A stretch of 40,475 nt of DNA from Acidobacteriota bacterium (lineage in GTDB: Bacteria > Acidobacteriota > Blastocatellia > Pyrinomonadales > Pyrinomonadaceae), in contig JAIVJC010000009.1 of assembly GCA_020200235.1 (NCBI GenBank), forward strand, positions 1-40,475, in the 5' to 3' direction. This document shows positions 1,878-35,536 of this stretch, in pieces. Numbering within the stretch: the stretch's first letter is position 1; every line of letters begins with the position of its first letter. The notes below the pieces were generated by a model. The model saw nothing but the letters and a program-made list of their open reading frames with translations. It did not search any database and had not been told where the DNA came from. The position numbers and the translations under genes were made by a program.

Positions 1878-3089
1878 ATGGCTAAGAAATTACAAGCCGA
1901 TGAGTGGTTGTTCGCGGCGACGGCGGCGCTGGCGCTGTTCGGCGTCGTGATGGTCTACAGCGCGTCCGCCGACATCTCGTTCCAACAGTTCGGGAGTCAG
2001 TATTACTACGTCAAGCGGCAGGCGGTGTGGACTATCGCGGGGCTCGCCCTGATGCTCGTCGCCGCGCAGGCGGACTATCGTGTGCTCAGCCGGCGCTTCA
2101 TCGTCATCGGGCTGCTGATCACGACCGTCATCATGCTCGTCGCCGTCTTCGGCTTCCCGCCGGTCAACGGCGCGCGCCGTTGGATCAGGCTGCCGGGCGG
2201 CTTCACGTTCCAGCCATCGGAGTTCTCGAAGATCGTGCTGGCGATCTACCTCGCCAGGCTGTTGGAGCGGCGCGCGGGCGAGGAAGCGTCGTTCAAGCGG
2301 ACGTTCGTGCCGTGCCTCGTGGTGACGGGCGTGCTCGCCGGGCTCGTCGCGAAGGAGCCCGATCTCGGCACGGCGATGATGCTCGGCGTGGTCTGCCTCG
2401 TGATGCTCTACACGGCGGGCGCGCGCCTCGCGCACCTCGGGATGCTCGGCGGGCTGGGCTTGGCGGGCGTGGTCGGGATGCTCGTCACGTCGCCGTGGCG
2501 CATGGGTCGCATCTGGGCGTACCTCCACCCGTGGGACGACGCGCAGGGCAAGGGCTTTCAGGTCGTGCAGTCGCTGATCGCGGTCGGGTCGGGCGGCACC
2601 GACGGGCTCGGCTTCGCCGAAGGGAGGCAGAAGATGTTCTTCCTCCCCTTCGCGTACTCCGACTACATCTTCGCGGTCGTCGGCGAAGAACTCGGTTTGG
2701 TCGGCGCGCTGACGGTGCTCGCGGTCTTCGCGCTCTTCCTCTGGCGCGGCATCCGCGCTGTCAGGCGCGCGCCGGATCGTTTCGGGATGCTGCTGGGGAT
2801 GGGCATCGTATCGGGGATCGTCGCGCAGGCCCTCTTTAACATGAGCGTGGTGCTGTCGCTCGTGCCGTCGAAGGGGATCCCTTTGCCGTTCATCTCCTAC
2901 GGCGGCTCGTCGATGCTGCTGACGCTCGGCGCGGTCGGCGTGCTCTTGAACATCTCGCAGCAGGGGACCGAACAGTCGGTGCTGTTGCAGGAGAGAGCGT
3001 TCGCGCAGGCGGCGGACGCCGTCCGGGCGAAGTCGGAAGTGCGCCGTCGCCCGCCCGTCACGCAGACGTGGCGACCGGAGGGTCGTTAA
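1878..3089 (+). CDS. ftsW: FtsW, septal SEDS peptidoglycan glycosyltransferase
   Basis: SEDS-family polytopic membrane protein that polymerises lipid II at the septum together with a class B PBP. At 403 aa with about ten hydrophobic segments it has family size. The N-terminal helix carries VVMVYSAS, the middle has VAKEPDLGTA, whose Asp is the catalytic residue in the family, and the C-terminal part has PSKGIPLPFISYGGSS. Place between murD and murG in a dcw cluster favours FtsW over RodA. The ATG follows repeat A1 by a few bases and no Shine-Dalgarno is visible. The C-terminal tail after about residue 370 is cytoplasmic and basic. Confidence 0.95.
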   Translation: MAKKLQADEWLFAATAALALFGVVMVYSASADISFQQFGSQYYYVKRQAVWTIAGLALMLVAAQADYRVLSRRFIVIGLLITTVIMLVAVFGFPPVNGARRWIRLPGGFTFQPSEFSKIVLAIYLARLLERRAGEEASFKRTFVPCLVVTGVLAGLVAKEPDLGTAMMLGVVCLVMLYTAGARLAHLGMLGGLGLAGVVGMLVTSPWRMGRIWAYLHPWDDAQGKGFQVVQSLIAVGSGGTDGLGFAEGRQKMFFLPFAYSDYIFAVVGEELGLVGALTVLAVFALFLWRGIRAVRRAPDRFGMLLGMGIVSGIVAQALFNMSVVLSLVPSKGIPLPFISYGGSSMLLTLGAVGVLLNISQQGTEQSVLLQERAFAQAADAVRAKSEVRRRPPVTQTWRPEGR

Positions 3090-3094
3090 AAGTA

Positions 3095-4177
3095 ATGCGC
3101 GTGCTCTTCGCCGCGGGCGGGACGGGCGGTCACATCTACCCCGCGATCGCGGTGGCGAACGAGGTCGTGCGGCGCGACAAGGATTCGTCAGTCAGGTTCG
3201 TCGGCACGGCGCGCGGGCTGGAGACGAAGCTGGTGCCGCAGGCGGGGTTCGAACTTTCGCTCATTGAAAGCGCGGGGCTCATCAACATGGGTTGGGGCGC
3301 GCGACTGCGCGGGCTGAGCCTCCTGCCGAAAAGTTTTCTCGACGCGCGGCGGCTCATACGCGAGTTCCGACCCGACGCCGTGGTCGGCGCGGGCGGCTAC
3401 GTCTCGGGTCCCGTCCTGATGACGGCGGCGCTGTTGCGGCGACCGACGCTCGTGATGGAGTCGAACGCCGTGCCGGGTTTCACGAACCGCAGGCTCGCGC
3501 GCTTCGTGGACGCGGCGGCGGTCTCCTTCGAGGCTTCCGTGCCTTACTTCAATGGTAAGGCGGTCGTCACCGGCAACCCCGTCCGCCGCGAGTTCTTTGA
3601 CATCCCCGCTAGACGGCGCGACCCGTCGCGAGTTTCACTTCTGCTCTTCGGCGGCTCGCAGGGCGCGCGCGCGGTGAACGAGGCGATGATCGCCGCGCTC
3701 CCGCACCTGGAAAATTACCGGGGGCGGCTGAGTGTGACGCACCAGACCGGCAAGCTCGACTTCGAGCGCGTGCGCGACGCTTACGCGGCGGCGGGGTGGG
3801 CGGAGGACTCGCGGGTGCGCGAGTACATCGACGACATGATGAAGGAATTCGCCGACGCCGATCTGATCGTCTCGCGCGCGGGCGCGACGACCACCGCCGA
3901 GCTGATGGCGGCTGGCAAGACCGCCGTCATGGTGCCGCTCCCCGGTCAGATGGAGCAGCAGCGCAACGCCGAGGCGCTCCGCGACGCGGGCGCGGCGGCG
4001 ATGGTCACGCAGGCGGAGCTGACGGGCGAACGGCTCGCCGGCGAGATCGCGAAGTTGATTGACGACCCCGAAGAGATCACGCGCCGCGAACGAGCCGCGC
4101 GGCGTCTGGCAAAACCCGACGCGGCGGCAGCCGCGGTTGACATGATCGAGAAGTTGATAGTTGTCCGTGGTCAGTAG
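3095..4177 (+). CDS. murG: MurG, lipid II synthase (GlcNAc transferase)
   Basis: Peripheral inner-membrane GT28 enzyme that adds GlcNAc to lipid I. The N-terminus has the G-loop GGTGGH (residues 8-13), then VGAGGYVSGP; the UDP-GlcNAc side carries GGSQGA and SRAGATT. I chose ATG 3095, five bases after the ftsW stop, because the protein then begins MRVLFAAGG as in the family; GGAGGG at 3077-3082 lies 12 bases upstream. A GTG at 3068 would add nine unconserved residues and overlap ftsW. The last residues (VVRGQ-stop) are encoded by the left arm of repeat B1, so the native C-terminus may have been altered by the element. Confidence 0.95.
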   Translation: MRVLFAAGGTGGHIYPAIAVANEVVRRDKDSSVRFVGTARGLETKLVPQAGFELSLIESAGLINMGWGARLRGLSLLPKSFLDARRLIREFRPDAVVGAGGYVSGPVLMTAALLRRPTLVMESNAVPGFTNRRLARFVDAAAVSFEASVPYFNGKAVVTGNPVRREFFDIPARRRDPSRVSLLLFGGSQGARAVNEAMIAALPHLENYRGRLSVTHQTGKLDFERVRDAYAAAGWAEDSRVREYIDDMMKEFADADLIVSRAGATTTAELMAAGKTAVMVPLPGQMEQQRNAEALRDAGAAAMVTQAELTGERLAGEIAKLIDDPEEITRRERAARRLAKPDAAAAAVDMIEKLIVVRGQ

Positions 4178-4260
4178 TCCGTAGTCAGTTGCTCTTAGCT
4201 GACATGCGGCACATTGAAGACCACGTTCAACTACTGACCACGGACAACTGACCACTGACG
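4160..4260. repeat. Palindromic heptad repeat B1 (murG end to murC)
   Basis: Left arm includes a 19-base core at 4160-4178 whose exact reverse complement is at 4230-4248. Words repeat every 7 bp (GTCCGTG, GTCAGTA, GTCCGTA). The murG stop TAG (4175-4177) is inside the left arm. The right end stops five bases before the murC ATG. Confidence 0.85.
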
Positions 4261-4264
4261 TTTT

Positions 4265-5662
4265 ATGTTTCGTCGAATCCAACACGTCCACCTCGTCGGC
4301 ATCGGCGGCATCGGCATGTCGGGCATCGCCGAGGTGCTGTGTAATCTGGGCTTCCGCGTCTCGGGCTCGGATTTGAAGCGCTCGGGCGTGACCGACAGGC
4401 TCGTCTCGCTCGGCGTCGATTTCCGCGAAGGGCATCGCGCGGAGAACGTCGGCGACGCGCAGGTGGTCGTTCGCTCCACAGCCGTGCGCGACGACAACCC
4501 GGAGATCGTCGCGGCGCGCGAGCAGTCAGTCCCCGTCGTTCCGCGCGCCGAGATGCTCGCGGAGCTGATGCGACTAAAACTTTACACGGTCGCCGTCGCG
4601 GGCTCGCACGGGAAGACGACGACGACCTCGATGGTCGGGATGGTCTTGGGCAAGGGCGGGCTCGACCCGACGGTGGTGGTCGGCGGCGTCGTCGGCGCGT
4701 TCGGCTCGAACGCGCGTCTGGGGAAGAGCGATCTGATGGTCGTCGAGGCTGACGAGAGCGACCGCACGTTCCTGATGCTCGCGCCGACTTTCGCCGTCGT
4801 GACCAACATCGACCGCGAGCACATGGACTACTACGCCGACATGGAGGACATGCACGACTGCTTCACGAAGTTCGTCAACAAGGTGCCGTTCTACGGCGCG
4901 GCTGTCCTGTGCCTCGACGATCCGCACGTGCAGATGGTCATCCCGCACGTCAAGCGCCGCCGCATCACCTACGGCTTGAGCGCGCAGGCTGACATCTCGG
5001 CGCACGGCATCCGCTACGCCCAGTCGTTCGGCTCGACCTTCACGCTGCGCCGCGGCAGCGACGTGGTCGGCGACGTGACCTTGCGCGTGCCGGGCCTCCA
5101 CAACATCTACAACGCGCTCGCCGCCATCGCCATCGGCTTCGAGCTGGACGTGGCGTTCGCCGAGATCGCCGAAGGGCTGCACGAGTTCACGGGCGTCAAC
5201 CGGCGCTTCCAGACGAAGGGCGACGTGGGCGGCGTGCTGGTCGTCGACGACTACGCGCACCACCCGACCGAAATCCGCGCGACGCTCGCCGCGGCGAAGC
5301 TCAGTTCGGCGGGTCGCCGCATGGTGGTGCTGTTCCAGCCGCACCGCTACACGCGCACGAAGGATCAGATGGACGAGTTCGCGCGCTCCTTCAACAACGC
5401 CGACGTGCTTCTGATCTCTGACATCTACGCCGCGAGCGAAGACCCCATCGAGGGCATCTCGGCGGAGACCCTGACCGAGGCGGTCAAACGCTACGGGCAC
5501 AAGAACGTCTTCTACGTCGGCAGCCTCGAGACGGCGGTCAAGGCGCTTTTGAGCGAGGCGCGACCCGGCGACATGGTCTTCACGCTCGGCGCGGGCAACG
5601 TCTCCGGCGCGGGCGAGCAGTTGGTCGAGCTGTTGAAGCGGAACGGGAAGGAAGGGAAATGA
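4265..5662 (+). CDS. murC: MurC, UDP-N-acetylmuramate--L-alanine ligase
   Basis: First of the Mur ligases, adding L-alanine to UDP-MurNAc in the cytoplasm. The 465-aa length is normal. The N-terminal UDP-binding part has [12 protein letters not shown] (about 9-20); ATP loop GSHGKTT starts at 113; later [12 protein letters not shown] and FQPHRYTR, all MurC-specific. The start ATG lies right after repeat B1 with only a T-rich spacer, so no Shine-Dalgarno is present. The stop TGA touches repeat C1. Murein order murG-murC-murB is common in dcw clusters; no ddl is seen between murB and ftsQ. Confidence 0.96.
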
Positions 5663-5738
5663 TGAACGCGGAATGATGAATGATGAAGTAAAAACCTTTT
5701 GTCTTTCAGTTCATCGTTCATCGTTCATCATTCATCGT
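5661..5738. repeat. Palindromic heptad repeat C1 (murC end to murB)
   Basis: Left arm 5661-5689 (GATGAAC, GCGGAAT, GATGAAT, GATGAAG) and right arm 5710-5738 (TTCATCG words) are imperfect inverted complements with 7-bp period. The 20-nt loop read on the - strand starts CTGAAAG, as does the loop of copy C3 read on the + strand, so C1 lies in the opposite orientation. It fills the murC-murB gap. Confidence 0.8.
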
Positions 5739-5746
5739 TGCTTGTG

Positions 5747-11543: not shown

Positions 11544-12536
11544 ATGGGCGACCCGGCCGGGATCGGTCCCGAAGTCGTCCTGAAGGCGGTCGCGGAGGAG
11601 AGCGTGAGACGCGCCTGCGCGCCCGTCATCGTCGGCGACGCGCAACTGCTCGCGCACACCGCGCGCAAGCTCGACCTCCGGTGCGGCTACGAGATCGTCC
11701 GGCGCGGCGAGAGCCTGCCGGACGATCTGGACGAGCCCGTCATCTTCCACCTCGACAACATCCGCGACCGCGTCGAGCCCGGCGTCGAGTCGGGCGCGGC
11801 GGGTCGCGCGGCGGGCGAGTACATCGAGGCGGCGGTCGAGCTGTGCGCCTCGGGGCGCGTGGACGCGATCTCGACCGCGCCGATCAACAAGAAGGCGCTC
11901 TTCCTCGGCGGCTACAGCTTCCCCGGACACACCGAGTTCCTCGCGCACCTGACGGGCGCGCCGGAAGTCGCGATGGCGTTCGTCGCGGCGAACCTGCGCA
12001 TCGTGCTCATCTCGACGCACGTGCCGCTGGCCGAGGCGATCCGGCTCGTGCGGCGCGATCTCATCGAGCGCGTGGTGAGGCTCACGGATCGCGAGCTGCG
12101 GAGGTGGGGCATCGACGAGCCGCGCATCGCGGTCGCCGCGCTGAACCCGCACGGCGCTGAAGGGGGGCTCTTCGGCGTCGAGGAGGCGGCCGAGATCGCC
12201 CCGGCGGTCGAGGCGTGCCGCGAGCGCGACCGCGTGGACGTGCGGGGACCCTTCCCGGCGGACACGGTTTTCCTGCGCGCCTCGCGCGGGGAGTTCGACG
12301 CGGTCGTCGCGTGCTACCACGATCAGGCGATGATCCCCGTCAAGTGCCTGTCGTTCGGCGAGGCGGTCAACGTCACGCTCGGCTTGCCTTTCATCCGCAC
12401 CTCGGTCGATCATGGGACGGCGTTCGACATCGCCGGGCGGGGCGTCGCCGAGCATTCGAGCATGGTCGCCGCCATCGCCCTCGCCGCCGAGCTGGTGCGC
12501 ACGGACGACGCGGGACGAACGGTTGAAGCAACCTGA
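11544..12536 (+). CDS. pdxA: PdxA, 4-hydroxythreonine-4-phosphate dehydrogenase
   Basis: NAD-dependent, metal-dependent enzyme of pyridoxal phosphate synthesis. Begins MGDPAGIGPEVVLKA; has FPGHTEFLAHLTG and CYHDQAMIPVKCL (family metal-ligand histidines) and TSVDHGTAFDIAG. Oddly, the family normally has about eight residues forming the first strand before this GDPAGIG motif, and here the only start in the frame is the ATG inside it; the frame upstream is open to the hfq stop but has no ATG, GTG or TTG. No clear Shine-Dalgarno. It may be translationally coupled to hfq. The stop TGA directly abuts repeat A2. Length 330 aa is otherwise normal. Confidence 0.92.
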   Translation: MGDPAGIGPEVVLKAVAEESVRRACAPVIVGDAQLLAHTARKLDLRCGYEIVRRGESLPDDLDEPVIFHLDNIRDRVEPGVESGAAGRAAGEYIEAAVELCASGRVDAISTAPINKKALFLGGYSFPGHTEFLAHLTGAPEVAMAFVAANLRIVLISTHVPLAEAIRLVRRDLIERVVRLTDRELRRWGIDEPRIAVAALNPHGAEGGLFGVEEAAEIAPAVEACRERDRVDVRGPFPADTVFLRASRGEFDAVVACYHDQAMIPVKCLSFGEAVNVTLGLPFIRTSVDHGTAFDIAGRGVAEHSSMVAAIALAAELVRTDDAGRTVEAT

Positions 12537-12647
12537 GATTGCGGAATTCGGATTGCGGATTGCGGATTGATAAAGACCAGCACGGGCTGAGACGGCAAGC
12601 ACTTCTTAATTCCTGAATCCGCAATCCGCAATCCGAATTCCGCAATC
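12537..12647. repeat. Palindromic heptad repeat A2 (after pdxA)
   Basis: Left arm 12537-12568 and right arm 12616-12647 are perfect reverse complements over 32 bases. The arm is made of 7-bp words GATTGCG, GAATTCG, GATTGCG, GATTGCG. The 46-nt loop aligns with the A1 loop: 24 of the first 32 aligned bases agree by eye, including GCTGAGA and GGC. It starts at the base after the pdxA stop codon. Confidence 0.9.
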
Positions 12648-12668
12648 TGAAAGCCGGAGGGTTTCGGA

Positions 12669-15796: not shown

Positions 15797-15929
15797 CACC
15801 CCAGAGGCGCAGAGGGCGAACCAAACGATGAAGTAGGAACGATGAACGATGAAGTAAGAATAGAGGTCTTCACTTCATCGTTCATCGTTCCTACTTCATC
15901 GTTCAATCCCCTGCGTCTGCGGCGGTGGG
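15797..15929. repeat. Composite palindrome with heptad repeat C2 at its centre
   Basis: The core is a perfect 31-bp inverted repeat, 15824-15854 with 15873-15903, built of CGATGAA / GTAGGAA 7-bp words around an 18-nt loop. Outside it, 15797-15818 and 15907-15929 form a weaker inverted pair rich in GCAGAG / CTCTGC words, suggesting one element type nested around another. It occupies the gap between two convergent genes. Confidence 0.8.
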
Positions 15930-17673: not shown

Positions 17674-17756
17674 AAACGATGAAGTAGGAACGATGAACGA
17701 TGAACTGAAAGCCGCACGCTTTTACCTCATCGCTCATCGTTCCTACTTCATCGTTT
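17674..17756. repeat. Palindromic heptad repeat C3
   Basis: 30-bp arms 17674-17703 and 17727-17756 match as inverted complements at 29 of 30 positions, with the same CGATGAA / GTAGGAA words as C2. The 23-nt loop begins ACTGAAAGCC. It fills the gap between the coiled-coil gene, whose stop TAA (17755-17757, - strand) it overlaps, and the next gene's ATG. Confidence 0.9.
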
Positions 17757-18576
17757 ACATCGGCGGTGGCGGTGTCGCCGCGGGGGTCGGGCTGGGCGCG
17801 GGGGTGCGCGTCGTCGTCGGCGTCGCAGGGCGGGCGACGGTCGTGGTGCCGTCCTCGCCTTCAGCCTCGCGGCGCATGGCGACGTCGAGTTCAGAGCGCA
17901 GCCGCTCGGCGAGCTGCTGCGCGGTGACGAGCGAGGATTCGAGCTGCTGTCGGCGCGTGTTCTGTACATCAATTTGAGCTTGAACGCCCTTTTTTTCGCT
18001 CTCAAGTCTGCGGCGCAGGGCGTCCCGAGCCTCGTCAGGGCGGAACGTCCCAACGGTCGCCACGGCATTATTCAAACTCTCCGGTCTCATCGCATCGTCA
18101 AGCTGGTCGGCTCGCATTTGTAAGGTCGCCTGCTTCTCCATCACCTCGCTCATCTGCGTCTGCAGAGCCTCGACGCGCTGCTCGGCGCGTGTGAGCCGCT
18201 CCTGGATGAGATCGGTGCGCCGCTGCTGCTCCATCTGATCGACCTTCTTGTTGAGCTGCTTGAGCTGCGTCGAGAGCTGATCCACCTCCCTGCGCGACTC
18301 CGCCTCCTTCGCGTCGGCGGCGGCGCGCGTGTTGCGCCGGGTGGACGGGCGCGCCTCTTCCTGCGGCTGATCCTCCGCGCTGCTGATGAGCCGCGGCTCG
18401 CTCGGGTCGGGCGTCGCCGTCGGCGTGGGCGCGGGCACGTAGGTCGGCGTCACCGGGTTGGTCGCGCGGCGCGAGGGGCGCCTGCGCCGCTGCGTCTGCA
18501 CGCCGACGACGCTCGCGACCAGCGACAGCAGAAGGGCGCACAGCGCGACGAGTTTGAAAGTTGATCGGGCGAACAT
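17755..18576 (-). CDS. Secreted coiled-coil protein of unknown function
   Basis: 273 aa. Residues 1-28 are a signal peptide (MFARSTFKLVALCALLLSLVA). Then a basic Arg-rich patch, a Pro/Thr-rich linker, and about residues 90-235 of predicted coiled coil rich in Gln, Glu, Arg and Leu with two helices separated near PESLNNAVATVGTFRPDEA. The C-terminus is again Pro/Thr-rich. No enzyme motif is seen. A spacer or scaffold in the periplasm is an inference. GGAGGT upstream of ATG 18576 gives a good start. It lies downstream of nadC on the same strand, separated by repeat B2. Confidence 0.7.
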   Translation of the reverse strand: MFARSTFKLVALCALLLSLVASVVGVQTQRRRRPSRRATNPVTPTYVPAPTPTATPDPSEPRLISSAEDQPQEEARPSTRRNTRAAADAKEAESRREVDQLSTQLKQLNKKVDQMEQQRRTDLIQERLTRAEQRVEALQTQMSEVMEKQATLQMRADQLDDAMRPESLNNAVATVGTFRPDEARDALRRRLESEKKGVQAQIDVQNTRRQQLESSLVTAQQLAERLRSELDVAMRREAEGEDGTTTVARPATPTTTRTPAPSPTPAATPPPPM

Positions 18577-18596: not shown

Positions 18597-18695
18597 GTCA
18601 GTCGTCAGTCGTCCGTGGTCAGTTGTTCGACTCGCCTGAGCGCGATTCTCGTTAGCCACATGCAACTGACAACTGACCACGGACAACTGACAAAG
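18597..18695. repeat. Palindromic heptad repeat B2 (between nadC and the coiled-coil gene)
   Basis: Arms 18604-18626 and 18669-18691 are inverted complements over 23 bases with one mismatch, with words GTCAGTC, GTCCGTG, GTCAGTT. The central GTCCGTGGTCAGT is shared with B1 and B3. It begins about 47 bases after the nadC stop and ends before the ribosome site of the coiled-coil gene. Confidence 0.85.
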
Positions 18696-26646: not shown

Positions 26647-26732
26647 AAAGCCGTGAACCGTGAACCGTCAACCGTGACAGGAGAAATCAGTTTCTCCCTC
26701 GTCACGGTTGACGGTTCACGGTTCACGGCTTT
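26647..26732. repeat. Palindromic heptad repeat E1
   Basis: Perfect 32-bp inverted repeat, 26647-26678 with 26701-26732, built of GTGAACC, GTGAACC and GTCAACC words. The 22-nt loop holds its own hairpin, GGAGAAA at 26680-26686 with TTTCTCC at 26691-26697. It starts six bases after the stop of the VIT/VWA gene. Confidence 0.9.
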
Positions 26733-26837: not shown

Positions 26838-27848
26838 ATGAAACCCGATCTTATCAGCACGGCGCGCTTGCGGAAGGCGGGCGCGCGTTCGTCGATCTTC
26901 GTCTGCCTCGTCGCGTGCGTCGCCTCGGTCGCGGCGCAGGCGGGGTGGGTCGCGGAGCGGCGCGGCGAGGCGGGGAAGGATTTGAACGCCGTCTACTTCG
27001 CCAGCGAGAAGCGCGGCTGGATCGGCGGCGACGGCGGGCAGGTCTGGCGCACGGAGGACGGCGGGCGCACGTGGTCGCGCCAGCAGACCGGCGTCGAGGA
27101 GAGCGTCAACGACATCTACTTCCGCGACAAGGAGGACGGCTACCTGCTCGCGGGGAATAAAATTCTGCTCACCGAGGACGGCGGCGCGGCGTGGCGCGCG
27201 GCGCACACCTTCGCCCCGGCGGAGTTCGGCGGCGCGTCGCCGGAGCTCTACAGCGTGCGCTTCGCGTCGAAGAAGCGCGGCTGGGTGGTCGGCTCGGTGA
27301 GCCGCGGCGACAACGTCGTCGACAGCCTGCTGCTCTACACGGACGACGGCGGCTCTTCGTGGCTGCGCCGCACCACGCCCGTCAGCGTCGAGCTGCTGCA
27401 CCTCGACTTCGACGGCGAGAAGCGCGGCTGGATCGTCGGCGACCGCGGCACGATCCTCCACACCGACGACGGCGGCACGACCTGGGCGCGGCAGACCTCG
27501 AACACGACGGCGACGCTCTACCACGTGGACTTCGTCGACGACGAGAACGGCTGGGCGGTCGGCGAGCGCTCGACGATCCTGCGCACGAACGACGGCGGGC
27601 GCACGTGGTCGCGCGCGCAGGCGGCGTCGGTCGGCGCGAACGCGACGCTGTTGAGCGTCGCGTTCACCGATCGCGACGAGGGCTGGATCGTCGAGCGCGG
27701 CGGCGCGATCCTGCGCTCCCCCGACGGCGGGCGCACGTGGATCAGGCAGGAGTCGGGGACGAAGCAGCGGCTCTACGCGCTCTTCTTCAACAAGAAGAAC
27801 GGCTGGGCTGTGGGCGGCGACGGCACGCTGCTGCGCTACGAGAGGTGA
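26838..27848 (+). CDS. Ycf48-like secreted beta-propeller
   Basis: 336 aa. N-terminal signal peptide (SSIFVCLVACVASVAAQAG, about 18-36). The rest is six or seven repeats of about 42 residues of the form GW-hydrophobic-VG-G-T-hydrophobic-L-T-DGG-TW, for example RGWIVGDRGTILHTDDGGTT. This is the Ycf48/BNR pattern of photosystem assembly factors and many secreted propellers. A photosynthetic role is not implied; no photosystem gene is here. Binding of a protein or glycan partner in the periplasm is an inference. Next gene follows after 7 bp. Confidence 0.85.
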   Translation: MKPDLISTARLRKAGARSSIFVCLVACVASVAAQAGWVAERRGEAGKDLNAVYFASEKRGWIGGDGGQVWRTEDGGRTWSRQQTGVEESVNDIYFRDKEDGYLLAGNKILLTEDGGAAWRAAHTFAPAEFGGASPELYSVRFASKKRGWVVGSVSRGDNVVDSLLLYTDDGGSSWLRRTTPVSVELLHLDFDGEKRGWIVGDRGTILHTDDGGTTWARQTSNTTATLYHVDFVDDENGWAVGERSTILRTNDGGRTWSRAQAASVGANATLLSVAFTDRDEGWIVERGGAILRSPDGGRTWIRQESGTKQRLYALFFNKKNGWAVGGDGTLLRYER

Positions 27849-32195: not shown

Positions 32196-32236
32196 CCGCC
32201 CGGCGTGAAGAGCACGCGCCGGGCGGGTTTTTTCTT
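32196..32236 (+). terminator. Orphan intrinsic terminator on the + strand
   Basis: CCGCCCGGCG at 32196-32205 pairs with CGCCGGGCGG at 32217-32226, followed by a run of six T and CTTT. The T-run is on the + side, yet genes on both sides are on the - strand. Confidence 0.6.
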
Positions 32237-32350
32237 TGTCCGTGGTCAGTAGTCAGTAGTCCGTTGTCGATCAGTCAACATAACCTTCAAGCTTTCAACT
32301 CTGCATGGCAGACCAACTGACCACTGACCACGGACAACTGACTACTGACC
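32237..32350. repeat. Palindromic heptad repeat B3 (end of M16 gene)
   Basis: Left block from 32237 and right block about 32311-32350 are inverted complements over 22 bases with one mismatch (core GTCCGTGGTCAGT). The M16 stop TAG (32342-32344, - strand) lies in the right arm and is read from the same GGTCAGTAG word that ends murG in B1. Confidence 0.85.
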
Positions 32351-35300
32351 GATCTTCCTCCCCGTGAACTTGAGCGCGGGCGCGGGGATGGGCAGGTTGC
32401 TGACCTTGATCGTGCCCGTCATCTGAGAGCCCTCGACGCGGGCTAAGACCTGCGCGTCGAAGGTGCGACCCTGGAGCGCGAGCGTGACGACGGCGCTGAC
32501 TATCTCGCCCTCGACGCGCGTCTGGCTCAGCTCGCCGTCGCCGAGCTGCGACTTGATCGAGCCCGCCACCTCGCCGCCCACCGCGCGCGCGAGCGTGAGC
32601 GTCGCCGGGTGCTGACCGAAGGGCGTCTTCACGTCCAGCTCCCACGTCCCCAGGAGCGCGTCCGATCCATTCGCCGCCGCGCCGACGCCCGCGCCCGCCG
32701 CGCGGCCCGTCCCGTTGTTCTGTTTAGCTACCACTTCTCCTCCTCGTTCTTTGCGCCTGCCGTTGTGATCGTAGAGCTCGACCGCCTCGGCGTAGGGTTT
32801 GATCTGATCGCCGAGGGCGGCCGCGTCGCCGACGATGACGATTGCCGCCCGGTCGGGCGTGACGTACTCGCGCGCCGCGCGGCGCACCTCCTCCCGCGTC
32901 ACAGCCTGCACGCGGTCGCGGTAAGTCTCCAGGTAGTCCCTGGGGAGATCGAACATCCTGATCTGGACGAGCTGATCGATGAGACCGTCGAGCCCTTCGA
33001 GCCTGATGGGGAAGATGCCCGTCAGGTAGCTCTTCGCGTCGCGCAGCTCCTTCTCCGAAACGTCTTCTTCGCGGATGCGCTCGAACTCGTAGAAGAACTC
33101 TTTGAGCGAGTCGCCCGTCACGGGCGTGCGCACCTCGGCGGTCGCGCGGAAACTCCCGGCGCCGCGCCGCGCGTCGAGGTTCGAGTAGGCGCCGTAGGTG
33201 TAGCCCTTCTCCTCGCGCAGGTTCATGAAGAGGCGGGAGGACGCGTTCGCGCCGAGGATGGTGTGCATCACGAGCGCCGGGAAGTAGTCGGGGTGCGTGC
33301 GCGCGATCGCCGAGTTGGCGATGATGATGTTCGACTGCGCCGAGCCCGGTCGATCGACCAAGTAGGCGGCGCGCGACTCGCGCGCGGGCGGGGCGGGGAA
33401 GTCGCCTCCGAGCGGTTCCGCGCGTTGCCACGCGCCGAACAACTCTTCGACGCGGCGCAAAAGTCTCCCGCGGTCGAAGTCGCCGCCGCAGACGAGCACG
33501 GCGTTGTTCGGGATGAAGACCGCGCGGTGGAACGCGGCGACCTCGTCGCGCGTCGTGGCTTCGACGGATTCGGGCGTGGGCGCGACGACGTGGTAGGGGT
33601 GCGCGCCGTAGATGACCTGTGAGACGCGCTCGCTCGCGAGGAACGACGCCTGACCGCGCTGCGCGATCAGGTTTTGCAGCGTGTTCTGCTTCGTCAGCTC
33701 CAGCTCGTCTTCGGGGAACGACGGGCGCAGGCAGACGTCCGCCATCAGCTCCAGGATTTCGTCGGCGAAGTTCGAGAGCGAGGAGGCGGCGACGGTCGTG
33801 TAGTCGGAGTTCGCGCCCGCGTTGAGGGTCGCGCCGATGCGCGCCACCTCTTCGGCGATCTGCCGGCTCGTGCGCGACCCCGTGCCCTCGTTGAGCATCC
33901 CGGCGACGATGTCCGTCAGGCCGGGGCGATCCGCGGGGTCGTGCGAGTTGCCGGTGGGGAAGGCGAGCCGGAGGCTGACGAGCGGGAAGCGCCCGCTCTC
34001 GACGAGCACGACGCGCAAGCCGTTGGCGAGCGTCAACTCTTCCACAGCCGGCAGGTTCAGCGCGTCCGCGGGCTGCGCGGGTTTTTCGGGGTGCGGCCCG
34101 TCGTGCGCGAGGGGCGAGGCGGGCGTCTCGCCGGTCGGCGCGGGGGGCTGCGCGGGCGGGCGCGGCGGAACCTGCGGGGGCGGCGCGCCGGGCTGTTCGG
34201 CGCCGCCCGTCTCCGCGGCAGAGGTTGATGGGGCGGCTGTCCCGGCGGTCGGAGTCTCCGCGTCGTCGGGCGCGGGCACGACCTCGATGAGCGAGAAGTT
34301 GTCGCTGGAGAGGAAGCGCGCCGCCGCTTCTTTGATCTCTTCGGGCGTGACGCGCAGGTAGTGCTCCAGCTCCGTGTTGATGAGATCGGGATCGCCGTCG
34401 TAGAGCGTGTACTCGGCGAGCATCTGCGCGCGGAACATCGTGGACTGGCGGCCGCGCACGGAGTCGTTGAGCAGGTTGTTGCGCAGCTTCTCCATCTCCC
34501 CAGGCGTAGCACCCTCCGATGCGAGCCGGTCGATCTCCCCCATGATCGTGGCGCGGATCTCGTCGGTCGTCTTGCCCGGCTTCGGGATCGCGAAGAGGTA
34601 GAGCGACGAGGGGCCGCGCCGCTCGCCCATCCCGCCCTGCACGGCGACGACCGACTCGTCGCCTTTGACGAGCCGCTGGTAGAGCCGCGAGCTCTCGCCT
34701 TCGAGGAGGAGATCGGAGGCGAGCGCGAGCGCGTAGAACTCTGGCGTGCGGCGCACGGGCGCCTTCCAGCCGAGCATCAGCGCGGGCAGCTGCGCGAAGC
34801 GGTCGGGGTACGACTCGAAGCGCGCGGCGACCTCCGCCGACTCGTCGACGTTGACGACGGGCGGCGCGGGCTGCCGCGGGATCGACGCGAAATACTTCTC
34901 GACGAGGGAGCGCGCCTCCGCCGGGTCGAAGTCGCCGACGATCGAGAGCACGGCGTTGTTCGGCGCGTAGTAGATGCGGAAGAACTCGCGCACGTCTTCG
35001 ACCGAGGCGGCGTCCAAGTCTTCCATCGAGCCGATGGTCGAGTGCGCGTTCGCGGGGTTGCGGAAGACCATCTCGTTCAGGCGCAGGAACGCGCCGGAGT
35101 AGGGGCGGTTGTCGTAGGTGAGCCGCTTCTCCTCCTGCACGGCGTGGCGCTGGTTGTCGAGGTTCTCCTGCGTCACCTTGAGGGAGCGCATCCGGTCGGA
35201 TTCGAGCCAGAGCGCGAGCGGGAACTGGTGCGAGGGCAGCGTCTCATAGTAGTTGGTGCGCTCGGTCGAGGTCGTGCCGTTCATCGTCCCGCCGGAGTTG

Positions 35301-35536
35301 AAGACGTACTGGAAGTGCGCCGCCTTCGGCACGTTCTCCGAGCCCTGGAACATCATGTGCTCGAAGAGGTGCGCGAAGCCGGTGCGCCCCTCGCGCTCGT
35401 TGCGCGAGCCCACGTCGTAGTAGACGGCGACGGAGACGACCGGGACGGCGTGATCTTCGCTCAGGATGACGCGCAAGCCGTTCTCAAGTGTGAACTGCTC
35501 GGCGGGCACGCGAGGGACTGCGACGGTTTCGGGCAA
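32342..35536 (-). CDS. Fused two-half M16 zinc peptidase with extra C-terminal domain
   Basis: 1064 aa. First M16 half has the inverted zinc motif HLFEH (56-60) with the distal Glu in HAVQEEK (about 135). A Pro/Ala-rich linker at about 425-500 leads to a second M16 half that lacks the zinc motif (LTDIVAGMLNEG) but keeps the GYTYGAYS-type substrate region. After about 950 comes a roughly 100-residue beta-rich module (GTWELDVKTPFGQ, VEGSQMTGTIK). Active and inactive halves form a chamber in this family. Start TTG is supported by GAGGT seven bases upstream, overlapping the TonB-C gene stop. No signal peptide is visible. The end IGQ-stop comes from repeat B3. Confidence 0.93.
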   Translation of the reverse strand: MPETVAVPRVPAEQFTLENGLRVILSEDHAVPVVSVAVYYDVGSRNEREGRTGFAHLFEHMMFQGSENVPKAAHFQYVFNSGGTMNGTTSTERTNYYETLPSHQFPLALWLESDRMRSLKVTQENLDNQRHAVQEEKRLTYDNRPYSGAFLRLNEMVFRNPANAHSTIGSMEDLDAASVEDVREFFRIYYAPNNAVLSIVGDFDPAEARSLVEKYFASIPRQPAPPVVNVDESAEVAARFESYPDRFAQLPALMLGWKAPVRRTPEFYALALASDLLLEGESSRLYQRLVKGDESVVAVQGGMGERRGPSSLYLFAIPKPGKTTDEIRATIMGEIDRLASEGATPGEMEKLRNNLLNDSVRGRQSTMFRAQMLAEYTLYDGDPDLINTELEHYLRVTPEEIKEAAARFLSSDNFSLIEVVPAPDDAETPTAGTAAPSTSAAETGGAEQPGAPPPQVPPRPPAQPPAPTGETPASPLAHDGPHPEKPAQPADALNLPAVEELTLANGLRVVLVESGRFPLVSLRLAFPTGNSHDPADRPGLTDIVAGMLNEGTGSRTSRQIAEEVARIGATLNAGANSDYTTVAASSLSNFADEILELMADVCLRPSFPEDELELTKQNTLQNLIAQRGQASFLASERVSQVIYGAHPYHVVAPTPESVEATTRDEVAAFHRAVFIPNNAVLVCGGDFDRGRLLRRVEELFGAWQRAEPLGGDFPAPPARESRAAYLVDRPGSAQSNIIIANSAIARTHPDYFPALVMHTILGANASSRLFMNLREEKGYTYGAYSNLDARRGAGSFRATAEVRTPVTGDSLKEFFYEFERIREEDVSEKELRDAKSYLTGIFPIRLEGLDGLIDQLVQIRMFDLPRDYLETYRDRVQAVTREEVRRAAREYVTPDRAAIVIVGDAAALGDQIKPYAEAVELYDHNGRRKERGGEVVAKQNNGTGRAAGAGVGAAANGSDALLGTWELDVKTPFGQHPATLTLARAVGGEVAGSIKSQLGDGELSQTRVEGEIVSAVVTLALQGRTFDAQVLARVEGSQMTGTIKVSNLPIPAPALKFTGRKIGQ

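Follow-up and report, generated by a model that had tools for sequence, protein, structure and literature searches.

Heptamer-built palindromes at gene 3′ ends as the probable source of the shared Gly-Gln-stop tails of MurG and an M16 peptidase in an Acidobacteriota bacterium

The window (the whole stretch of DNA analyzed, 40,475 nt) contains murG on the forward strand (3068-4177; Pfam Glyco_transf_28 and Glyco_tran_28_C) and an M16 peptidase gene on the reverse strand (32342-35536; Pfam PF00675/PF05193). The murG product ends in ...IEKLIVVRGQ-stop, and its TAG (4175-4177) lies within the left arm of a palindromic element, B1 (4152-4256), which starts 26 nt before the murG end and finishes 8 nt before the murC ATG (4265). 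B1 has arms of the heptamer GTC[CA]GTN, with a core pair (4159-4178 and 4230-4249) that is 100% complementary and encloses a 51-nt loop. A second element of the same arm family, B3 (32236-32351), spans approximately the last two codons and the stop of the M16 gene, whose product ends in ...FTGRKIGQ-stop with the TAG (32344-32342, reverse strand) in the outer arm of B3. As the original prediction had claimed, both Gly-Gln-stop ends were read from one word, GGTCAGTAG (4169-4177, forward strand; 32342-32350, reverse strand). B1 contributed approximately 8 codons to murG (..LIVVRGQ-stop), whereas B3 contributed approximately 2 to the M16 gene. The predicted RNA folds had energies of -55.1 kcal/mol (z = -7.2) for B1 and -55.6 kcal/mol (z = -5.5) for B3. 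Across the 4.08-Mb genome, GGTCAGTAG was present in 21 copies vs. 8 for the backwards word, and the arm pattern GTCCGTNGTCNGTNGTC occurred 245 times vs. 0 for its reversed control. The latter pattern was patchy among relatives (36 of the 97 genomes searched).

Several further elements were found in the window, which gave no Rfam match above the gathering score. Two belonged to the GGATTGC family: one (1754-1872) ends 5 nt before the ftsW ATG, and the other (12536-12648) begins at the final base of a stop codon. The GATGAAN family was represented between murC (stop 5660-5662) and murB (ATG 5747) by an element at 5658-5739, and by two more at 15824-15903 (not abutting a stop; 134 and 60 nt away) and 17674-17756. 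A B-family element was located at 18597-18691 and a GTGAACC-family element at 26647-26732. Three other gene ends had been predicted to lie inside repeats, with different outcomes. The murD stop was indeed inside the element at 1754-1872, in the loop (1813-1815) and not in an arm, being reached after 19.7 codons through an arm free of stops. The proposed overlap with a coiled-coil gene was looser: the TAA (17755-17757, reverse strand) shares only 2 nt with the arm edge of the element ending at 17756. If the repeat named for a CoxI-type gene is the one at 26647-26732, this example was also looser, the stop (26641) being 5 nt outside the arm and the gene encoding a VIT/VWA protein, not CoxI, according to Pfam. 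Four direct repeats of approximately 97 nt were also observed inside coding sequence at 26990-27752, where they probably belong to a repeat-domain protein.

The size of the repeat population was assessed in 1.23 Mb of contigs, representing 30% of one draft genome (4.08 Mb, 258 contigs). We used a home-made detector of inverted repeats with 7-bp-periodic arms, which misses one-sided arrays, and a home-made codon-usage gene caller, whose stops are reliable and whose starts are approximate. The sample contained 163 heptamer-arm palindromes, so that the genome is estimated to hold a few hundred copies (approximately 540 by proportion). The typical element was approximately 80-115 bp long, with a variable loop flanked by two arms in inverted orientation, each a tandem series of imperfect 7-bp repeats. 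Median lengths were 28 nt for the core arm, 30 nt for the loop, and 91 bp for the whole element. In a tandem-lag scan, lag 7 gave 49 islands and its multiple, lag 14, gave 33, compared with 2-15 for lags 3-13 and 15. Arm families included GTCNGTN (B1 and B3), GATGAAN, GGATTGC, GTTAGCT, GTGACAN/GTGAACC, and AGTCGGG, and the arms grouped into sub-families. Arms at least 95% identical were found at unrelated loci with unrelated loops in 67 of the 163 elements. The loops had only heptamer-derived words and weak GAAGAC/CTTTCA motifs in common.

Heptamers are the commonest longer simple sequence repeat in many bacteria, with slippage as a proposed origin (reviewed in PMC4679880), and the tandem 7-bp units found here are those of a heptanucleotide SSR or STRR-type repeat. 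The arrays could accordingly have grown in place by replication slippage until they met coding sequence. We regard this as improbable. An ordered series of non-identical words (AACGATGAAGTAGGAACGATGAACGATGAA) recurred at many loci while the loops differed, which indicates that they are copies that have dispersed, as opposed to products of slippage at each locus; in addition, the elements remained on the stop side where space was free. The idea that the two arms of an element were made from each other in place was also rejected, since in 92 of 163 cases the arms resembled another element more closely than they resembled each other.

The elements abutted or slightly overlapped stop codons and avoided gene interiors. 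In the first 965 kb, one of 128 elements was inside a coding sequence, and the outer edge was between -12 and +10 nt from the facing stop in 91 of 136 cases, with the mode at +3 to +5, i.e., outside the gene. When the free space in the gap was 30 nt or more, 30 of 62 elements abutted the stop (≤6 nt), compared with 5.1 expected under uniform placement (0 of 20,000 simulations). The same placement test showed no anchoring to start codons (4 of 61 vs. 5.9 expected). Non-heptamer palindromes of the same genome (n = 119) peaked instead at +20 to +40 from the stop. Stop abutment was replicated in syntenic pieces of ten other genomes (8 of 17 vs. 1.0 expected). Given these edge positions, B1 and B3 represent the overlapping tail of a distribution centered just outside the stop, and because most elements begin just past the stop, supplying a stop codon is a minority outcome.

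Location after stop codons is also what transcription terminators, intrinsic or bidirectional, would show, but the elements were abundant in tight operons (e.g., murD-ftsW-murG-murC-murB), and were not enriched between convergent genes (23/162 vs. 125/940). An intrinsic terminator has a G+C-rich stem with a T-run behind it, at the ends of transcription units; here, five or more T in the 8 nt after the stem were present in 13 of 76 elements vs. 6 of 60 other palindromes, with no clear excess. The separate palindromes at +20 to +40 resemble the real terminators. With both the T-run and the convergent enrichment missing, the terminator reading was rejected as very improbable.

Approximately a fifth of the elements contained the stop codon of a gene (32 genes), mostly after 0-6 repeat-encoded codons; the extremes were 11 and the 19.7 of murD, which is read through an arm of the stop-free family. 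Read inward, the B arm offers a sole stop, the TAG in (N)GT-CAG-TAG or GT-CCG-TAG. Because this TAG follows CAG or CCG, genes that end in a B arm end in Gln or Pro; for the same reason, the Gly-Gln coincidence between MurG and the M16 peptidase is not independent evidence. Gln was the last residue in 8 of the 32 genes stopped in elements vs. 43 of 946 others (P = 1e-4). This enrichment argues against a chance encounter of two native Gly-Gln C-termini with unrelated repeats, as does the position of both stops within complementary arms. Gly-Gln-stop did occur elsewhere (three of seven such genes in the sample were outside elements), as a chance origin would have it; nevertheless, we give that reading hardly any credence, the tails of relatives having already disfavored it (see below).

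On average, 1.71 frames were stopped by arms read inward, 0.93 by arms read outward, and 1.28 when the units were permuted; because the copies are related, this difference amounts to a trend rather than a rigorous test. A stop is contained in the GATGAAN, GTGACAN, and GTTAGCT units, and as a 7-nt period does not divide evenly into codons, units with TGA or TAG interrupt every reading frame. The GGATTGC unit has no stop; therefore, these repeats cannot all be described as "stop cassettes."

To compare tails, we used 29 murG orthologues and the M16 orthologues from relatives with and without the repeat. MurG orthologues were conserved as far as the ...LIEKL motif, after which the genomes diverged, and most M16 orthologues were conserved to ...FTGxR plus 0-4 residues before diverging. 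Many murG stops were located in the genome's own, differently worded repeat, with the endings ..GRGQDTEHRIRN (L002), ..RSEIRGQ (L006), ..LLAVSR (L014), ..GRKQ (L019), ..VVSGQ (L020), and ..SGEQ (L029). MurG proteins without a visible element ended in ..SGKGK, ..RKVVGK, and ..IKERKV. Gly-Gln-stop was not observed in repeat-free relatives; it occurred only with an own GGTCAG-worded element (L006 and L020). This comparison indicates that, where the repeat is present, the tail is repeat-encoded and only a few unconserved residues are altered. Replacement of the native C-terminus, also part of the original prediction, therefore holds in a weak sense: a few unconserved residues were lost, but conserved motifs were kept.

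The same junctions lacked an element in some relatives. The murC-murB gap, which is 84 nt with the element of the window, measured -4 nt in each of two genera, and another two had gaps of 0 and -1 nt. At the junction of the element at 12536, four genomes had gaps of -4, 5, 7, and 24 nt, and two others carried differently worded elements. These short or overlapping gaps support insertion at stop/start junctions, with different words apparently occupying the same junctions repeatedly. Together with the clustering of element edges on stops, they gave strong support to the predicted insertion at gene ends.

Some junctions showed further variation. At murG-murC (L002-L030), most genera of the family carried a differently worded heptamer element, in the manner of a hot spot. 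The one further genome of this genus among those searched (G001, contig C29, L161) had a GGATTGC element at murD-ftsW similar to that at 1754-1872 of the window and an unrelated one at murG-murC, so that, between these two genomes, one site was kept and one replaced within the genus. Long one-sided heptamer arrays (AAAGGGC and AAAGACC) with no inverted partner were found in the murC-murB gap of G029 and the murG-murC gap of G034 (L169-L171 and L174-L176), that is, at junctions that hold palindromes in other genera.

These observations lead us to consider it likely that B1 and B3 belong to a large population of palindromes dispersed through the genome, almost all of them outside genes and most at gene 3′ ends, from which both the Gly-Gln tails and the split Shine-Dalgarno (SD) sites described below follow. 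That two unrelated proteins share a tail is a side effect of repeat position and no special device. The repeats would have spread by copying, and copies would persist where the harm is least, at the stop or a few codons from it. A copy beginning ahead of the native stop would usually end the frame with its arm within a few codons, and the B unit, offering only ..CAG TAG or ..CCG TAG, would produce Gly-Gln-stop tails. In operons, many copies separate the SD of the downstream gene from its AUG, and the folded hairpin would restore spacing as in T4 gene 25.

Alternatively, the hairpins may be functional 3′ elements selected at stops, either stalling ribosomes and lowering translation in the manner of E. 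coli REPs close to a stop or stabilizing mRNA 3′ ends. The tight stop anchoring fits the ≤15-nt rule reported for REPs (PMC12306157, citing Liang 2015), B1 and B3 have strong predicted folds, and in many genera differently worded elements occupy these junctions. Arm mismatches, in contrast, showed no G-U bias (24 G-U, 43 A-C, and 90 other) and most deviations affected one arm only. Hence, there was no sign of selection on an RNA hairpin, and pairing maintained by selection was rejected; orthologous junctions were also often empty. We consider functional 3′ elements unlikely.

SD sites were analyzed in 41 same-direction gene pairs with an element ending 0-10 nt before the start codon, the SD core being defined as at least 4 nt of AAGGAGGT. 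A core was present upstream of the start in 2 of the 41 real sequences, compared with 18 of 41 after in-silico excision of the element. The frequency in element-free gene pairs was 0.53 (gap ≤20) and 0.45 (gap >20). Splicing the flanks of elements far from starts gave an SD in 0.20 of cases (0 of 500 replicates attained the observed value), and random gene-end flanks at the same offset gave 0.23 (1 of 500). When functional spacing was required, the count was 12 of 41 vs. 5.6 expected (4/1000), compared with 7 vs. 5.9 for the reversed motif. In other genera, the core was found in none of 10 real sequences and in 6 of 10 after excision. The near-absence of SD cores beside near-start elements and their restoration on excision are new here. 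Because the core returns on excision, many elements sit between the SD and the AUG; an SD upstream of the hairpin with an AUG just downstream was a statistical property of the set of 41. For instance, AAGG (5652-5655, forward strand), a candidate murB SD, is upstream of the element at 5658-5739, and it would be 9 nt from the murB ATG (5747) with the element folded out. B1 was not a clear split case, with no 4-nt SD at murC after excision.

Folding of the hairpin could return the SD to a working distance of the AUG. In T4 genes 25 and 38, a structure between SD and AUG reduces the effective spacing from 27 to 11 nt and from 22 to 5 nt, respectively (PMC3014915). The elements would resemble these cases in having an RNA structure that shortens the spacing, but the T4 cases are two phage genes with small structures and experimental demonstration, whereas ours are dozens of repeat-made candidates drawn from sequence alone. 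Our tentative proposal, which we hold at somewhat below even confidence, is that dozens of operon genes, some of them essential, have had their ribosome-binding sites split by the repeat, whose own hairpin folds the SD back and keeps translation going. This would be a genome-wide counterpart of T4 gene 25 and might explain why insertion exactly at stop/start junctions is tolerated. The elements would thus provide a countable set of natural candidate split ribosome-binding sites, which makes hairpin bypass between SD and AUG directly testable in an ordinary bacterium. For this group, a rule for gene ends also emerges: a C-terminal tail that varies, or a final residue that proteins share, may be repeat-encoded and should not be taken as a functional signal.

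When compared with known repeats, the elements are best filed as a REP-like heptamer-repeat variant. Like REP/BIME sequences, which comprise hundreds of extragenic palindromes, some ≤15 nt from a stop, they were extragenic, palindromic, and of high copy number. REPs are 20-40 bp long, with GTAG/CGTC tags and RAYT transposases (PMC3733652, PMC12306157); the elements here were longer (median, 91 bp) and heptamer-built, with ends varying by family and no GTAG or CGTC tag. The search of the Y1 family identified no associated transposase: the two Y1_Tnp genes (L203 and L204; G000 contigs C186 and C133) had no heptamer palindromes in their 3.3-kb loci, and mobilization by a Y1/RAYT enzyme was rejected because these genes are not flanked by the repeat. 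Nor was the target-site duplication of a MITE found, flanking direct repeats showing no excess over shuffled flanks.

The TAACTGA repeats of Beggiatoaceae and Cyanobacteria (MacGregor 2015) contain a stop in each of the three frames when read in one direction, and MacGregor drew attention to this property as we do for the arms here; their arrays overlap upstream stops in 13 cases, and one array is at a MurG end (PMC4679880). The likeness extends to 7-bp units, intergenic location, stop overlap, and few SDs by repeat-adjacent starts. TAACTGA repeats, however, are single direct arrays of one word near start codons (PMC4679880), whereas the elements here pair their arrays in inverted orientation, use many other words, and are anchored to stops, and the SD remains on their upstream side. 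The GGGAATC and GGGGA(C/T)T heptamers of Xanthomonas and Nostoc are similarly of high copy number and located between aligned genes, with some inverted pairs and some copies over stops, but they are G-rich, G-quadruplex-forming, and of other sequence; stop anchoring at 3-5 nt and SD splitting are not among the features described in the portion of PMC4692102 available. We found no account of such elements in Acidobacteria in the open-access literature. A second, non-heptameric palindrome family with the core GCCCCGAAGGGGCGGAATAAG was observed in the same genome (L082, 863-945; L085, 9748-9808; L094, 13088-13146; and L091, 5266-5430).
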